This document shows positions 16,458-43,851 of a stretch of 64,000 nt of DNA, one piece after another. The number at the start of each line of letters is the position of its first letter. The first letter of the stretch is position 1. Where the stretch lies: IMG/VR virus record IMGVR_UViG_3300021963_000055, positions 1-64,000 of that record. One strand, written 5' to 3'. The DNA comes from a virus. The notes beneath the pieces are model-generated. The model worked only from the letters and a program-made list of their open reading frames with translations, searched no databases and was not told the DNA's origin. Both the position numbers and the translations under genes were made by a program.

Positions 16458-19106
16458 TCAATCGAACCTGGAAGACATATTATCTTGAGATCTCTGTGCT
16501 GCAGCACGACGTTGTGCTACTTTTTGTGCAGGAGATGCTGGTGCTCCATACTGACCAGCGGCAGGTGGCTTTTTGCCAGGAACTTTTTTCTGTTGGCCAG
16601 CAGGCTTACCAGACATCTTACGCATAGTTTGTCTAACTGATCTGAGTGCAGGATCCGTATCACCACCTTTTTGAGTTGGTCTTCCTTTTGGCATATTAAG
16701 AGAACCAGAAGATGTTCCAGTTTCCTTTTCATAACGATTAAGTTCGTCAAGATGCTCAACTTCTTCCATGTGACCAGTTGGAAGTTTACCTTGCTTTTGC
16801 ATTTGAAGCCTTTGCTGTTGAAGCATTAAATGCTTTCTTTGCATCTGCTGCTGAGCTTTCATTCTTTGCTGACTTTGTGCTGCACTCTTAGCTGCTTCAG
16901 GATCAACTTCTTCTTGTCTATTATAAGCTTTCCAAGCGGCACCAAATGCCTTTCTTTTTTCTACATCAGTTAAACCATTTTTTGCATATTTAGCTTTAAT
17001 GTGCTTAGCCATTCTTTTGAATTGTTCACCTGGAGGAGAAACTTCATCAATCTGTTCAACTTCTTCTCTTCTCATATCAACCTGAGGATTGATGATCACA
17101 CCATCCTTTCTCTTTCCCTTCACATCTGGAGTATTGTCAGTTCTATTGGTCTGAGTTAAACTAACAAACTTTCCAGTTGCATCATCATCACTAGACTTTT
17201 TTTCGGTTAACTGCCTCCAGTCTGCGAATGTAAATCTTTCAATATCAAAAGTGTTTTGCAGTTTCTCTTCAATTAGTTCACGAGCAGAAGGACCAGATTC
17301 TTCTACCATTAGTTGAGCTTGTTCCATGAAGTAATCAAAGTGTTCTTGATCAAGAGTCTCAAAGATCTCTTGAACTTCATCGTAATTAAATGCAATTTCA
17401 GACTCAAGGAAATAACGAGTTAGAAGTTCTTTTTCTTCCTTCTTCATTTTTTTAACAAAAGTACCCACTGCTCTACCTGCAGTTGCAGCAGCGGATGCTC
17501 CAGATCTTCTGGCTGCTACTGCTTGTCCTGCAGCCGCTCCAGCAGCTCCCGCAGCCTTGACTGCAGTTCTACCTGCTGCTTTAGCTGCTCTACCAGCCGC
17601 AACAGTTGCCTTTCTTCTTGCTCTAGTTGCTTGTGGAGATGTTTCTGCTTGTCTTCCCCTCTCCCTAACCGCATCATAAGTTGCTTTAACTTCTGCAGCA
17701 CGTCTTGCTCCTACTTGTCTTGCTGTGTTTACTGATTGTCTAACAGATGCGATATCCTTTTCTGCTCTTGCTTTAAGTGCTCCGAGAATACCACCTTTTG
17801 CCTTTTCTTTTGTTTGTGTTGGAGTTGATTTGGTTGCTGGTTGTGCTTTCTTTGCACTTGCAATTTTTGACTGACTTTGTAGTGCAGCCTTCATCCCAGA
17901 AGATTTAGATGCTTCTTTTTCTTTTTCAGCTTTTCTTGATTTATGCTCTGCAGTTCCACGAATTGCAGAAGACTTAGCACCACCCTTTAATGAACCAATT
18001 GACTTGCCACTCTTAGAAGTACCAGATCCACGAACCTTAGTGCCACCAGCACCTCTTCTCCATTCTAGGAGAACTTCTTCTGATGAAATTTCATCTACAA
18101 AATCACAGAAATCATCGAGACCCATTTCTTCAATTAGAATATCAATACCGTATTCATTGAGACCTTCAGAAATTAGATAGTCTGCTACAAACTCAACATC
18201 TTCTATCTTCACACAATTATCTACAACTCTGCCACCCTTCATTTTAGTGCCAGCTTTTTTATAACCTTTCCAGCAAGCTTTTCCATCAACACCTTGCTCT
18301 TTACCCTCTTTGTTTTTTGCTTCAATTGCAAATTCCTCAGGAAGTCCTTTTGAACCACCTACTTTATTATATTCAGCTCTACGCTTAGCACCGCTCTTAT
18401 TATATTGATGATATTCTCTTTCTGAGCTACTAAGTTTTGGAGTATTCTTTGGCTTTGCACCAGGAGCAGTTGGAGCATCTGGTGTTGCTCCTCTTGCACG
18501 ACCTAAAGTATAATATCTTGGTCCTGTTTTGTCATCCCCAGAAATTCTCTTGCCTGCATCAGATCTACCTGCTTGATATTCAGTATCGGATTGTCCGTGT
18601 CTTCCTTTCCAAAGCTCAGCAACATAATCTACGGCTTCTTTTCTAGTCTTCTTAACATCATCACCTGGCTCGTATGGCTTATCATCACCATCAGAATTCC
18701 ACCAAGGATTCTTACCATTAAACTTACGACCCTTCAACTTAGGTCTTTTCTTTTCGTCAATAACTTCAACTTCTTCTTTACGAACTCCACCTTTCGCATT
18801 TAGTTTTGCCTGAATGCGTTGTTTCATTTCTGGCATTGAAGCAACGTTATATAATGCAAGAGTAGGGGCACTGAAAGTAGTGCCATTAGTGTAAACAGCA
18901 ACACCCATGTAATCTCTTACTTTCTTGTCTTCAAGAAGAGTTAGAGCATAATCCAGGGTAGTATCAATTAAATTTTCTCTTAGATACTCTTCTTGAGAAT
19001 CCACATCACCTGGAAAGTACGCTTGTGCGGACTCAACCATTTTTGTAGCCTTATACATCATGTCAGGAGAAAGTGACATGAATTGTGAGACAATAGATAA
19101 ATCCAT
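16458..19106 (-). CDS. Large internal/virion protein with histone-like basic region
   Basis: An 882-residue mosaic: helical N-terminus (1-100), disordered charged linker, a GK-A-C-W-K-G-Y-K-K-A-G-T-K type segment (275-290), an acidic helix pair (300-350), a long Lys/Ala/Arg-rich H1-like stretch (about 350-555), another acidic helix pair, then a Gln/Met-rich tail. The octapeptide Glu-Glu-Val-Glu-x-(I/L)-Asp-Glu occurs at 111-118, 681-688 and 781-788; each ends in an (I/L)xE site like those cut by the T4 prohead protease. It is probably packaged with DNA and processed. Late-type boxes lie at 19129-19146. It resembles the 366-residue gene. Confidence 0.65.
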   Translation of the reverse strand: MDLSIVSQFMSLSPDMMYKATKMVESAQAYFPGDVDSQEEYLRENLIDTTLDYALTLLEDKKVRDYMGVAVYTNGTTFSAPTLALYNVASMPEMKQRIQAKLNAKGGVRKEEVEVIDEKKRPKLKGRKFNGKNPWWNSDGDDKPYEPGDDVKKTRKEAVDYVAELWKGRHGQSDTEYQAGRSDAGKRISGDDKTGPRYYTLGRARGATPDAPTAPGAKPKNTPKLSSSEREYHQYNKSGAKRRAEYNKVGGSKGLPEEFAIEAKNKEGKEQGVDGKACWKGYKKAGTKMKGGRVVDNCVKIEDVEFVADYLISEGLNEYGIDILIEEMGLDDFCDFVDEISSEEVLLEWRRGAGGTKVRGSGTSKSGKSIGSLKGGAKSSAIRGTAEHKSRKAEKEKEASKSSGMKAALQSQSKIASAKKAQPATKSTPTQTKEKAKGGILGALKARAEKDIASVRQSVNTARQVGARRAAEVKATYDAVRERGRQAETSPQATRARRKATVAAGRAAKAAGRTAVKAAGAAGAAAGQAVAARRSGASAAATAGRAVGTFVKKMKKEEKELLTRYFLESEIAFNYDEVQEIFETLDQEHFDYFMEQAQLMVEESGPSARELIEEKLQNTFDIERFTFADWRQLTEKKSSDDDATGKFVSLTQTNRTDNTPDVKGKRKDGVIINPQVDMRREEVEQIDEVSPPGEQFKRMAKHIKAKYAKNGLTDVEKRKAFGAAWKAYNRQEEVDPEAAKSAAQSQQRMKAQQQMQRKHLMLQQQRLQMQKQGKLPTGHMEEVEHLDELNRYEKETGTSSGSLNMPKGRPTQKGGDTDPALRSVRQTMRKMSGKPAGQQKKVPGKKPPAAGQYGAPASPAQKVAQRRAAAQRSQDNMSSRFD

Positions 19107-19128: not shown

Positions 19129-19146
19129 TATTTATTATTATTTATC
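19129..19146 (-). promoter_or_regulatory. T4-type late promoter boxes
   Basis: Minus-strand GATAAATA (19146-19139) and AATAAATA (19136-19129), 23-40 bases before the ATG of the 882-residue gene. Confidence 0.5.
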
Positions 19147-20322
19147 TTTTCGTTTGCCTTTAGTAAATGACTTAACTGGTTCAGTTGGATGCATTCTCTG
19201 CAGATATTCTCGGTAATCATCAGTACCAATCTCAAGTGGACCTGGATGATAACTTAGATCTTTGATCCATGTACGATGAATTTTCTTTTGCTCATCTACA
19301 AAAATTACATAGTTAGATCCACGAGTGACAATCTTTCCAGAAATACCTGTGACAACATCTTGAACTTTTTCGCCAAGATTAAAAATACTTCCTTGGTAAT
19401 ACTCTTCACGAAGATTATCAATATCTAAATTTGGTGCAATTTTCCAAAGATCTTCTTTCAAATTCATAGAATTACGTACTTGTCTATAGATTGCACGACA
19501 TTCTTTTTTGCTTACATTGCCAGGAAGACCTTGTTTAAATGTTTCATAATCATTCTCAAGTGCGGCTTTACGCATCATTGCACTAGTAATTCCTTCTGTC
19601 TTATCATTATCAGGATCTTGCATGTTCGTACTGACAACTTCTACGCCATAAAAGTCATACACACTTCCATTATATTTCTGTGCAATTTTTTCATACTTCT
19701 GAACGTTCTCTTCCCCACATACAATAACAACATGATGATATCCTTCATCATGGAGTGAAGTCAAAATGTCGTAAATATTATCTCCGTTCTCTGGGTCATT
19801 GATAATGTTCTCTGCATGATCTGGGAATACATGCTGAAGAATATTATACTTGGTTTTGAAGTCTAATGGATTTTGCTTTTTATCAGATGTTCTACTTGGA
19901 TAAATTCTATACTCTGCTTCTAGTTCTTCTGCTTGTTCCTGAACAGCATTGAGTAGATTTTCATGTCCGAGTGAAGGAGGATTAAATCTCCCAAAAGTAA
20001 TAACAACCGCAGGACCTTCTCCATGCTGAAGTTCCTGAGGTTGCTCTGCGTCTGCAGGTTGTTGAGTTTGTTGGGGCTGTGAAGGAAGATTCTGCACATC
20101 CGCCATTGAAGATGGTCCCAACAATGGTTGCCCAGTCTTCAGTTTTTTCTTTTCGTCTTTGGTGATAGATACTAATTTCTGACCACCCTTCTCACTCTTA
20201 GCGACTATCTCTCCCTTAGCGTTAGAATAGTATCCTTTCCCCATGTGGGTAAGACCTTTCTTTTCCGCTTCCTTCCCCGCAGGAGTTCGTGCTTCTGTTA
20301 TAAATTGTCTAAAAGTTTTCAT
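19138..20322 (-). CDS. Nucleotidyltransferase with N-terminal capsid-targeting sequence
   Basis: A 394-residue protein. Residues 1-10, Met-Lys-Thr-Phe-Arg-Gln-Phe-Ile-Thr-Glu, then Ala11, closely match the T4 internal-protein capsid-targeting sequence (MKTYQEFIAE, cut after Glu10 by gp21). A Gln/Pro-rich linker leads to a cytidylyltransferase/NMNAT-like domain with Gly-Arg-Phe-Asn-Pro-Pro-Ser-Leu-Gly-His at 111-120 and a Thr-Ser-Ala-Met-Met-Arg-Lys phosphate motif near 240. The C-terminal 70 residues contain a small beta domain. It probably transfers a nucleotidyl group (substrate unknown) and may be packaged and injected. ATG at 20322 was chosen over TTG at 20331. Confidence 0.82.
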   Translation of the reverse strand: MKTFRQFITEARTPAGKEAEKKGLTHMGKGYYSNAKGEIVAKSEKGGQKLVSITKDEKKKLKTGQPLLGPSSMADVQNLPSQPQQTQQPADAEQPQELQHGEGPAVVITFGRFNPPSLGHENLLNAVQEQAEELEAEYRIYPSRTSDKKQNPLDFKTKYNILQHVFPDHAENIINDPENGDNIYDILTSLHDEGYHHVVIVCGEENVQKYEKIAQKYNGSVYDFYGVEVVSTNMQDPDNDKTEGITSAMMRKAALENDYETFKQGLPGNVSKKECRAIYRQVRNSMNLKEDLWKIAPNLDIDNLREEYYQGSIFNLGEKVQDVVTGISGKIVTRGSNYVIFVDEQKKIHRTWIKDLSYHPGPLEIGTDDYREYLQRMHPTEPVKSFTKGKRKDK

Positions 20323-20354
20323 CAAAAACAAAAGTTCTACATCTATTATTTAGG

Positions 20355-41247: not shown

Positions 41248-42633
41248 TCACATTAGGTTGATCACACGGGTTCTTCTGTAGTAAACGTTGTCGTTTGCTT
41301 GGAGAGCACCAGAACGCTGGGTAAGACCACCTGCAAATGGGTTTGCAACCATGCCGTAACGGGTCTTGAAGCCAATCTTAGGCTGGAAGGTGTCCTGACC
41401 GATAGAACGAACCATCTGGAGAGGGACATATGGGCAATAGAAGAGACCTGCATCGTATGCATTGCTTCCCTTATAACCCATTACATAGTAATGATCGTTA
41501 GAGATGTTTGCGGAATATGGATCAACATAAACCTTGATACGACCGTTGATAGTACCAGCAAGAGTAGAAACGGTGTCATCTGGGGTGTCACTGGTGTTGA
41601 GTAGTGGGGTGTAATCCATTACTTTAGCAGCAGCTAGAGCACTTGCAACGTCTGCGGAACAAACGATGAAGTTACCCTTTCCTCTACGAGTCTCATGACC
41701 GATTGCGTTTGCATCACGCTCGATCTGGAATAGTAGACCCTTGAACTTCTCAACTGACCAACGACCGTTGGAGTCAACGTCGAGGTCGAAAGTACCAGCG
41801 TTAGCTACGTTGTTCTGAGCACCAGGCTTTGCAGTTACGTAGATGGTACGTACAACTTCACGGTTGATTTCAGTTAAAATCTCTGAGCTTAGGATGTTAG
41901 CAAGCTCAGTCTCGGCATCAAGACCATGAATAGCCTTGAGGTCTTGTGCGAGTTCTAGGGTGTACTCAGCTTTTAGAGCACGGCTCTTTGCTGTTACAGT
42001 TACCTTCTCAATGCTGAAGCTCATTTCACGGAACTCGGAACCAGCTTCACCTAGAGCTTCTGCAGCGTTGGTATTCATACCACCAACTGCAGCGTAGTTG
42101 CCAGAAGCGTTAAGTACACCAGGGTTGGTTGCAGTCTCACCAGTTGCTGCAGAGTATGCACCACCAGCAGCAGAGTAACCAGAAGGAACTTCGTTGAAGA
42201 AGGTCTCGTTATCGAATACGTTTGGAGTAGCACCGTTACCGTTACGGTCAGTACCACGATGAGCACGCATTGCGAAGATGAGTCCAGTAGGACCGCTCAT
42301 TGGCTGAACACCGCAAATGTCATAAGCAATTAGCTTAGGCATGGAACGGCGGATTAGGCTGATTAGAACTGGATCGAAACCAGCAACTGGACCGCCAGCA
42401 GCAGCGCCGCCAGAGAAACCATGTGCTCCTGCACCTGCACCACCTGCAGTGAAGGAACCAGTGCTGTTAGCAGCTACTTCGGAAAGAACGCCACGCTCTT
42501 CACGAAGGAAAGACTCTTGGTTCTCAAGGAGAACTGCAGTTACTGCCTTACGATATCTGTCTGTAATTGGGTTTAGATCGTTATGCTCCAGAATAGGAGC
42601 CCATTTTCTTTGTAGCTGTTCTGAATTAAACAT
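41248..42633 (-). CDS. 23: Major capsid protein
   Basis: A 461-residue gp23 (T4: 521) with the HK97 fold signature Ile-Ala-Tyr-Asp-Ile-Cys-Gly-Val-Gln-Pro-Met-Ser-Gly-Pro-Thr-Gly. The N-terminal propeptide ends at Gly-Val-Leu-Ser-Glu52, a (I/L)xE site at the same place as the T4 gp21 cut after Glu65, so about 409 residues should remain in the virion. It has a TATAAATA late box (42681-42688) and a strong terminator, so it can form its own abundant mRNA. Confidence 0.98.
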   Translation of the reverse strand: MFNSEQLQRKWAPILEHNDLNPITDRYRKAVTAVLLENQESFLREERGVLSEVAANSTGSFTAGGAGAGAHGFSGGAAAGGPVAGFDPVLISLIRRSMPKLIAYDICGVQPMSGPTGLIFAMRAHRGTDRNGNGATPNVFDNETFFNEVPSGYSAAGGAYSAATGETATNPGVLNASGNYAAVGGMNTNAAEALGEAGSEFREMSFSIEKVTVTAKSRALKAEYTLELAQDLKAIHGLDAETELANILSSEILTEINREVVRTIYVTAKPGAQNNVANAGTFDLDVDSNGRWSVEKFKGLLFQIERDANAIGHETRRGKGNFIVCSADVASALAAAKVMDYTPLLNTSDTPDDTVSTLAGTINGRIKVYVDPYSANISNDHYYVMGYKGSNAYDAGLFYCPYVPLQMVRSIGQDTFQPKIGFKTRYGMVANPFAGGLTQRSGALQANDNVYYRRTRVINLM

Positions 42634-42702: not shown

Positions 42703-43851
42703 TCACTGAGCCCATCTGGAAACAGCATTTACATATGCTGCCATTGGTCCCTCATAGAAGTCTTGATTCTTTTCAACGAGGTCTTCCACATAATTAGACT
42801 GAACTCTTGGGAAATAATTTTCCTTAATAGTTTCAATCTTGTCACGGAAAGATTCTTCACTAATAAACTCAACACCTTCTGCAAGGTTGAACATCTTTTC
42901 CTTTTGTGTTTCTGCTAGACCTTCGGATACTTCTGCAATAATTCCATGTTTAATATAGGATCCGATTTCTTGGTTTAGTTCAACATTAACTTCAATCTGT
43001 TCGTTGAGTTTTTCCTCCATCTCATCTAGTTTAGCTGCCATTTCGGCAACTACATCTTGTTGCTCTTCTGGAAGATCAATGTTGTTCTCCATGAAGAGGT
43101 TTGCAAGACCTTGCATTAGATTTTCAGCAATTTCGGTCTTGATGCCGTTGTCAATAGAAAGCTGGTTCTCAGCAATCCACTGTTCAGCAACATAATCAAG
43201 GTGAGCGTCTACACGAGTCTCTAGGGACTCAGCAATCTCTTCAATTTCCTCGATTAGACGCTGTTCGTATAGTGCCTCAAACTTTTGAACTTCTTCAACA
43301 ACTTTAGCCTTTACTGCTGCTTCAAAAATAGTTGCAGCCTTTTGCATAAAGTGCTCGGAGAGTTCTTCTCCGTAGAAGAGTGCATTGAGATCGTCGGTAA
43401 TATCGACTTCAATCTCTTCTGCCTTCATTTCTGTTTTTTCTTTCTTGGAAGACTTTTTCTTGCCTTCCTTTTCATCTTCTTCATCCTCATCTTCATCTTC
43501 ATCCTTTTCGTACTCACCTTCAGCAAGTAGTTCATCATCCTCTAGTTCCTCTTCTTCTCTCATTCCTTTTTGGCCTGGAGCGGAACCTTGGAGATGTGGC
43601 ATTGTATCTGGAGACTTAGCTCCAGCATTTACTTTAGAAGATGACTTCTTTACTCTGGAAGAAGCTTTTTTGCCAATTTCATCACCTTCTGGCTTAGTTG
43701 TGGAAGAACCACCTAACTCTTCTGGTGATGCACCCTGTCCAGGAGTGCTGTGCTGTAATTTTTGCATACGGTCTCCTGGTTTAGCGTGAGCAGTGACAAC
43801 GTTTCCTTCTTCTAGAAATTCGTCAAATTCTGTATTTAATACATTGGACAT
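42703..43851 (-). CDS. 22: Prohead core scaffolding protein
   Basis: A 382-residue gp22 (T4: 269), identified by place (between gp21 and gp23), extreme acidity, an Asp/Glu run (about 112-130) followed by a Lys patch, and a long helical coiled-coil C-terminal half. It forms the scaffold for prohead assembly and is destroyed by gp21 protease. The N-terminal 140 residues are low-complexity and longer than in T4. A late box lies at 43890-43897. Confidence 0.9.
   Translation of the reverse strand: MSNVLNTEFDEFLEEGNVVTAHAKPGDRMQKLQHSTPGQGASPEELGGSSTTKPEGDEIGKKASSRVKKSSSKVNAGAKSPDTMPHLQGSAPGQKGMREEEELEDDELLAEGEYEKDEDEDEDEEDEKEGKKKSSKKEKTEMKAEEIEVDITDDLNALFYGEELSEHFMQKAATIFEAAVKAKVVEEVQKFEALYEQRLIEEIEEIAESLETRVDAHLDYVAEQWIAENQLSIDNGIKTEIAENLMQGLANLFMENNIDLPEEQQDVVAEMAAKLDEMEEKLNEQIEVNVELNQEIGSYIKHGIIAEVSEGLAETQKEKMFNLAEGVEFISEESFRDKIETIKENYFPRVQSNYVEDLVEKNQDFYEGPMAAYVNAVSRWAQ

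Follow-up and report, generated by a model that had tools for sequence, protein, structure and literature searches.

The virus contig IMGVR_UViG_3300021963_000055 (104,877 bases) was analysed over its first 64,000 nucleotides (the window), in which a nucleotidyltransferase gene was found whose product begins with a putative T4-type propeptide for capsid targeting. The preferred reading, with a probability of roughly 0.78, is that this NadD/NMNAT-like enzyme is made late, packaged by its tag, cut by the prohead protease gp21 and injected into the host. The protein would be produced from its own late promoter, and the tag, chiefly F4 and F7, would bind the prohead core, by analogy with T4, enclosing the protein in the prohead. 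Cleavage after Glu10 by gp21 would then release a 384-residue NadD/NMNAT-like adenylyltransferase, which would remain with the DNA and most likely pass into the host cell upon infection; there it would sustain or replenish NAD, or use a different nucleotide substrate. The features of the window used below are as follows.

19138..20322, minus strand: nucleotidyltransferase gene, 394 aa and stop (translation, profile searches, homologue annotation GC 190)
20293..20322, minus strand: putative capsid-targeting propeptide, residues 1-10, MKTFRQFITE (translation, family conservation, decoy and shuffle controls; cut predicted)
20290-20292 and 20293, minus strand: predicted gp21 cut site, after the Glu10 codon (last base 20293) and before that of Ala11 (20290-20292)
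20137..20289, minus strand: small folded module, residues 12-62 (structure model, profile matches in S-CREM2)
20011..20136, minus strand: variable, largely disordered linker, residues 63-104 (pLDDT below 50 at residues 75-98; 16% mean identity, 32% gaps)
19453..20010, minus strand: nucleotidyltransferase core, residues 105-290, with the HIGH-type motif GRFNPPSLGH at residues 111-120 (Pfam PF01467, invariant motif, NadD fold)
19249..19422, minus strand: small C-terminal beta domain, residues 301-358 (PHROG search, model, fold search)
20347..20353, minus strand: CTAAATA, an element of the T4 late promoter type, 31 nt ahead of the nucleotidyltransferase start codon
43893..44546, minus strand: gp21-type prohead protease (Peptidase_S77, 1.8e-34)
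42703..43851, minus strand: gp22-type scaffold protein (T4_CASP, 1.2e-70)
41248..42633, minus strand: gp23 major capsid protein (Gp23, 6.9e-142)

The phage is T4-like, with gp20, gp21, gp22 and gp23 encoded in the window; the named phages most closely related to it are Synechococcus and Prochlorococcus myophages. The nucleotidyltransferase belongs to the cyanophage cluster T4-GC190 ('cytidyltransferase', NadD/NMNAT-like).

Translation of the minus strand from 20322 to 20293 gave MKTFRQFITE followed by Ala11 (the N-terminus reads MKTFRQFITEARTPAG), as an earlier sequence-only reading of this DNA had stated. The match to the T4 signal claimed there also held: the tag has ten residues with aromatics at positions 4 and 7, I/L at 8 and E at 10, followed by a small residue at 11, in agreement with the positions that matter for function in the capsid-targeting sequence of T4. 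In T4, mutagenesis assigned targeting mainly to positions 4 and 7 and processing to positions 8 and 10 (PMC9026906). The gp21 protease was present in the same window, as had been noted, and is the predicted processing enzyme for the tag; gp22 is, by analogy with T4, its predicted binding partner. As Ala11 follows Glu10, a cut after Glu10 would leave 384 of the 394 residues, the mature length given previously. This cleavage is strongly predicted, and gp21 would very likely perform it. A published N-terminal peptide showing the cut was not found in the literature.

An anchored motif preceded the core in 105 of the 114 relatives with a readable core, and one of the other nine is truncated at its 5' end. 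Among the 94 relatives in register, K2, F7 and E10 were constant, position 4 was F in 89, position 8 was L, I, F or V, and position 11 was A or S in 92. The search motif partly imposed K2, E10 and the residue classes at 4, 7 and 8; it imposed neither A/S11 nor the near constancy of F4 and F7. Positions 3, 5, 6 and 9 varied. Mean identity to the window protein was 60% in residues 1-11, 37% in 12-62, 16% in 63-104 and 46% in the core. Residues 12-62 were missing from S-CREM2 gp154 and S-SZBM1_140, and the tag was retained in both (MKNFSSFLTEA and MRFRQFIIEA, respectively). The conservation of the tag and the late promoter element upstream support the start codon, and a wrong start was rejected on the former.

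The upstream element belongs to the T4-type late promoter class and was kept in close relatives, even with differing upstream flanks. Such elements numbered 34 on the coding strand and 6 on the opposite strand; they preceded gp18, gp20, gp67, gp22 and gp23, and were absent in front of MazG, gp41 and UvsX, which neighbour the enzyme gene. The nucleotidyltransferase gene has its own predicted T4-type late promoter, consistent with late expression.

The strict motif, M[KR]x(0-1)[FY]xx[FY][ILVMF]xE[ASG], occurred 103 times in 1.52 Mb of loci gathered mostly through the enzyme family and hence enriched for it, and 102 occurrences were close to an ORF start; ten Markov-shuffled sets together yielded one match. 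A DNA pattern of the tag matched at least 120 stretches in IMG/VR viral contigs, as against 0 for a permuted pattern of equal degeneracy. A chance origin of the N-terminus was rejected by the shuffle, decoy and conservation results. A relaxed pattern gave 21 matches in 13 T4-like genomes and its reverse gave 0, and on these counts the idea that genes of T4-like phages commonly start in this way was rejected. Among the 21, the match in HTVC008M opens a 30-codon frame and looks accidental. With S-CREM2 gp154 as the lone query, only one further locus was retrieved.

In T4 the tag DNA pattern matched exactly two genes, both starting with MKTYQEFIAEA, which we take to be IPII and IPIII. A third T4 gene, gp61.1 (NC_000866 18966-19130, minus strand, 54 aa, hypothetical), starts with the tag-like MKTFKEFIKED and to our knowledge is not among the known internal proteins. 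The propeptides of IPII and IPIII are identical (PMC9026906).

The identification of the product as a nucleotidyltransferase was upheld by profile searches. Pfam CTP_transf_like (PF01467) matched at 3.5e-6 (27.7 bits, cut-off 21), which places it in the HIGH superfamily, and PHROG cytidyltransferase at 1.6e-76. Residues F110, G111, R112, N114, P115, G119 and H120 were invariant, and GRFNPPxxGH was nearly invariant across the family. The structure model had a mean pLDDT of 80 (about 94 in the core, 105-290), with residues 1-10 poorly ordered, 12-62 folded, the linker disordered and a small C-terminal domain, which was partly KOW/SPT5-like in the fold search. The best PDB matches in Foldseek were NadD enzymes (E 2.6e-5, probability 1.00, TM about 0.6 of the target), followed by PPAT and human NMNAT1; a sequence search of solved structures gave one weak match, of no use. 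The NCBIfam NadD models scored E 0.008-0.06, far below cut-off, and the enzyme is therefore called NadD-like, not NadD.

An NAD-related activity is assigned tentatively, at slightly under even odds. Once packaged and injected, the enzyme may instead use some other small molecule as the acceptor of CMP or AMP, or modify a host macromolecule as T4 Alt does, which is a substantial possibility, albeit a minority one: most records annotate a cytidyltransferase, PPAT structures match the fold too, and the NadD-specific models were not passed. In favour of NAD, the NadD enzymes rank first in the fold search, and the weak NCBIfam matches include two nicotinate-nucleotide adenylyltransferases.

The tag was also found on other proteins. 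In various phages it preceded a T4 IPIII relative, ART-like proteins, DUF6267, a HAD phosphatase, GNAT acetyltransferases, a glucosaminidase, a lytic transglycolase and many unnamed families, to which S-CREM2 adds a tagged SAM lyase and a kinase. The mean column identity of 55 tagged proteins was 8%; as the tag itself was fixed by the search pattern, the diversity behind it is the point of this comparison. The gp21 protease family was present in 11 of the 11 tested records of at least 100 kb, all chosen for bearing the tag or the enzyme. In a profile search the 12-62 module recurred in two unrelated virion proteins of S-CREM2, kinase gp14 (3e-20, two copies; L280:10579-12846) and gp12 (3e-14; L280:7704-10313), so several packaged proteins have a second portable part in common.

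The motif scan of the contig beyond the window covered 40 kb, and the last 877 bases were covered by the whole-record pattern search. A second tagged gene was located there at 81883-82293 on the plus strand (L025:17883-18293; 136 aa, MKTYSEFITEA), with a AATAAATA element approximately 20 nt upstream. Its product was weakly similar (1e-5) to RNA 2'-phosphotransferase, a family with the ART fold, and a tagged relative was found in locus L131 and possibly in L178 and L142. PADLOC gave no match for the nucleotidyltransferase or the ART-like protein.

Several observations on neighbouring and related proteins were made alongside. S-CREM2 gp12 (L280:7704-10313, minus strand) is annotated as 'CRISPR Cas9 nuclease'. 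Pfam did not match it to Cas9, its best match being an unrelated one at E 0.12, and the annotation looks wrong. In S-PM2 p142 (L281:2133-3305) the enzyme is fused behind a DUF6267-related region, without an N-terminal tag; a separate DUF6267 protein with its own tag was found at L133:953-2182. Stretches resembling the tag were seen close to the N-terminus of gp22 of the window (FDEFLEE/G) and around the T4 gp23 maturation site near residue 65 (L239; AFGSFLTE/A). In S-CREM2 gp160 (L027:18343-19236), which is virion-detected, and Syn9 gp190 (L024:10695-11219), a near-N-terminal segment is almost identical to the gp23 arm (GFTGAAAPEGPVAGYDP versus GFTGAAAPGGPNAGFDP), a possible capsid-arm mimic judging by this likeness. 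The 882-aa downstream neighbour of the enzyme gene (16458-19106, minus strand) has three EEVExxDE motifs, starting near 18776, 17066 and 16766, each including a gp21-type (I/L)xE; this protein may undergo cleavage in the prohead. In S-SZBM1, the product of gene 139, which adjoins the enzyme gene, was virion-detected.

The enzyme could also be targeted into the prohead and cut in order to serve head assembly or DNA packing, or could merely be retained in the capsid, and not act as a delivered enzyme. The T4 core proteins gp22, gp67 and gp68 and internal protein IPIII have assembly roles (PMC9026906), and the low virion peptide counts (3 in S-CREM2, 2 in S-SZBM1) are silent on location or fate. 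Such a role is nevertheless unlikely. The residues of the catalytic motif do not vary within the family, a constancy that a structural filler would not need; the other tagged proteins include a SAM lyase, a kinase, GNAT and lytic enzymes; and T4 Alt and IPI are injected (PMC9026906). By analogy with these two T4 proteins, injection of the enzyme is likely, and it may act soon after entry.

Members of the enzyme family are reported from purified virions of four cyanophages in published proteomes: S-SM1 (PMC3037559), S-SCSM1 (ORF91; PMC9602691), S-SZBM1 (S-SZBM1_140, 2 peptides; PMC9146016) and S-CREM2 (ORF154/gp154, 3 peptides; PMC10665884). The S-CREM2 proteins with an anchored tag (SAM lyase gp6, gp13, kinase gp14 and cytidylyltransferase gp154) were all detected (4/4; Fisher p=0.003, or p=0.0004 among non-structural proteins; 217 genes, 52 detected proteins), the anchored form having been widened to GTG starts and L at position 4 after gp13 and gp14 were seen; with the narrower DNA pattern fixed in advance, both tagged proteins (2/2) were detected. 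Looser tag cases, gp12 (RFASFMAEA near the start), gp15 and gp136, were likewise detected. A looser motif, [FYL]xx[FY][ILVMFN]x(0-1)E within the first 30 residues, gave 13 S-CREM2 matches, eight of them virion-detected, and adds noise.

Tagged S-SZBM1_191 and _192 were absent from the 30-protein S-SZBM1 virion list, and the enzyme is seemingly missing from the 14-protein S-CREM1 list. The untagged S-PM2 homologue was undetected in S-PM2 virions, in a shallow proteome; the absence of both tag and detection fits tag-dependent packaging. The S-SCSM1 and S-CREM2 authors caution about co-purification and had already proposed injection of this enzyme family (PMC9602691, PMC10665884). It is unlikely that contamination by itself explains the detection in virions. 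That the N-terminal helix is no packaging signal and the enzyme acts in the infected cell, with its virion peptides being contaminants, as the authors' own warnings and the undetected S-SZBM1_191 and _192 would allow, is highly improbable in view of the independent detection in four phages, the 4/4 result in S-CREM2, the same motif on unrelated proteins and two T4 genes, and the late promoter, whereas a metabolic gene in a replication cluster would be expected to be early or middle.

The capsid targeting and packaging put forward in the sequence-only reading are well supported by the T4 positions, by the tag on two T4 genes and on unrelated proteins of gp21-encoding phages, and by the orthologues in the four cyanophage virions, and the enzyme of this uncultured virus is very probably packaged by its tag. 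The present analysis contributes the tag, its conservation and portability, the late promoter and the enzyme fold; the virion presence of orthologues in four isolates is published evidence.

The protein resembles T4 IPI, IPII and IPIII in being the product of a predicted late gene, in the gp21-type protease encoded with it and in its N-terminal targeting sequence of 10 residues, with aromatics at 4 and 7, I/L at 8 and E at 10, before a small residue at 11. Unlike these small basic proteins, of which it would share the cut and injection, it is a 43.5-kDa near-neutral enzyme (computed pI of the mature form 6.1, slightly acidic). If injected, it would be an enzyme carried in the head like the T4 ADP-ribosyltransferase Alt, but with a different fold; a tagged ART-like protein is encoded elsewhere in the same genome. 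It is of the same family as S-SCSM1 ORF91, S-CREM2 ORF154, S-SZBM1_140 and the S-SM1 T4-GC190 'NMNAT'/cytidylyltransferase, the virion-detected proteins; their detection and, in the S-SCSM1 and S-CREM2 papers, possible injection were previously published and are not new here. The accessible text of those papers does not mention a packaging signal; what is new here is the tag and its occurrence on other cargo. Head-packaged, injected enzyme repertoires have likewise been predicted from sequence for polyvalent proteins and for effectors fused to MuF or portal proteins (PMC5512222, PMC9503650), where packaging was deduced from head-protein fusion or gene neighbourhood; the present prediction relies on a short cleavable tag at the N-terminus. 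A literature search, with most subscription journals lying outside it, gave no previous account of the targeting sequence in cyanophages or of its wide enzymatic repertoire.

The tag offers a mechanism for a repeated, unexplained result, the presence of enzymes in the virion proteomes of cyanophages. A peptide beginning with Ala11 would separate true packaging from co-purification. As the same tag stands on many unrelated enzymes and several of these are in purified particles, it is probable that the viruses bring finished enzymes with them into the host. In T4-like phages of aquatic bacteria, one short cleavable tag may well be a general loading system, behind which unrelated enzymes are swapped and delivered at infection, and the injected repertoire of a phage would therefore be readable from its genome. 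The T4 targeting signal thus becomes a search tool: in a major group of marine and lake viruses, one low-background motif finds candidate injected enzymes, some of them, for instance a SAM lyase, likely to be anti-defence proteins.
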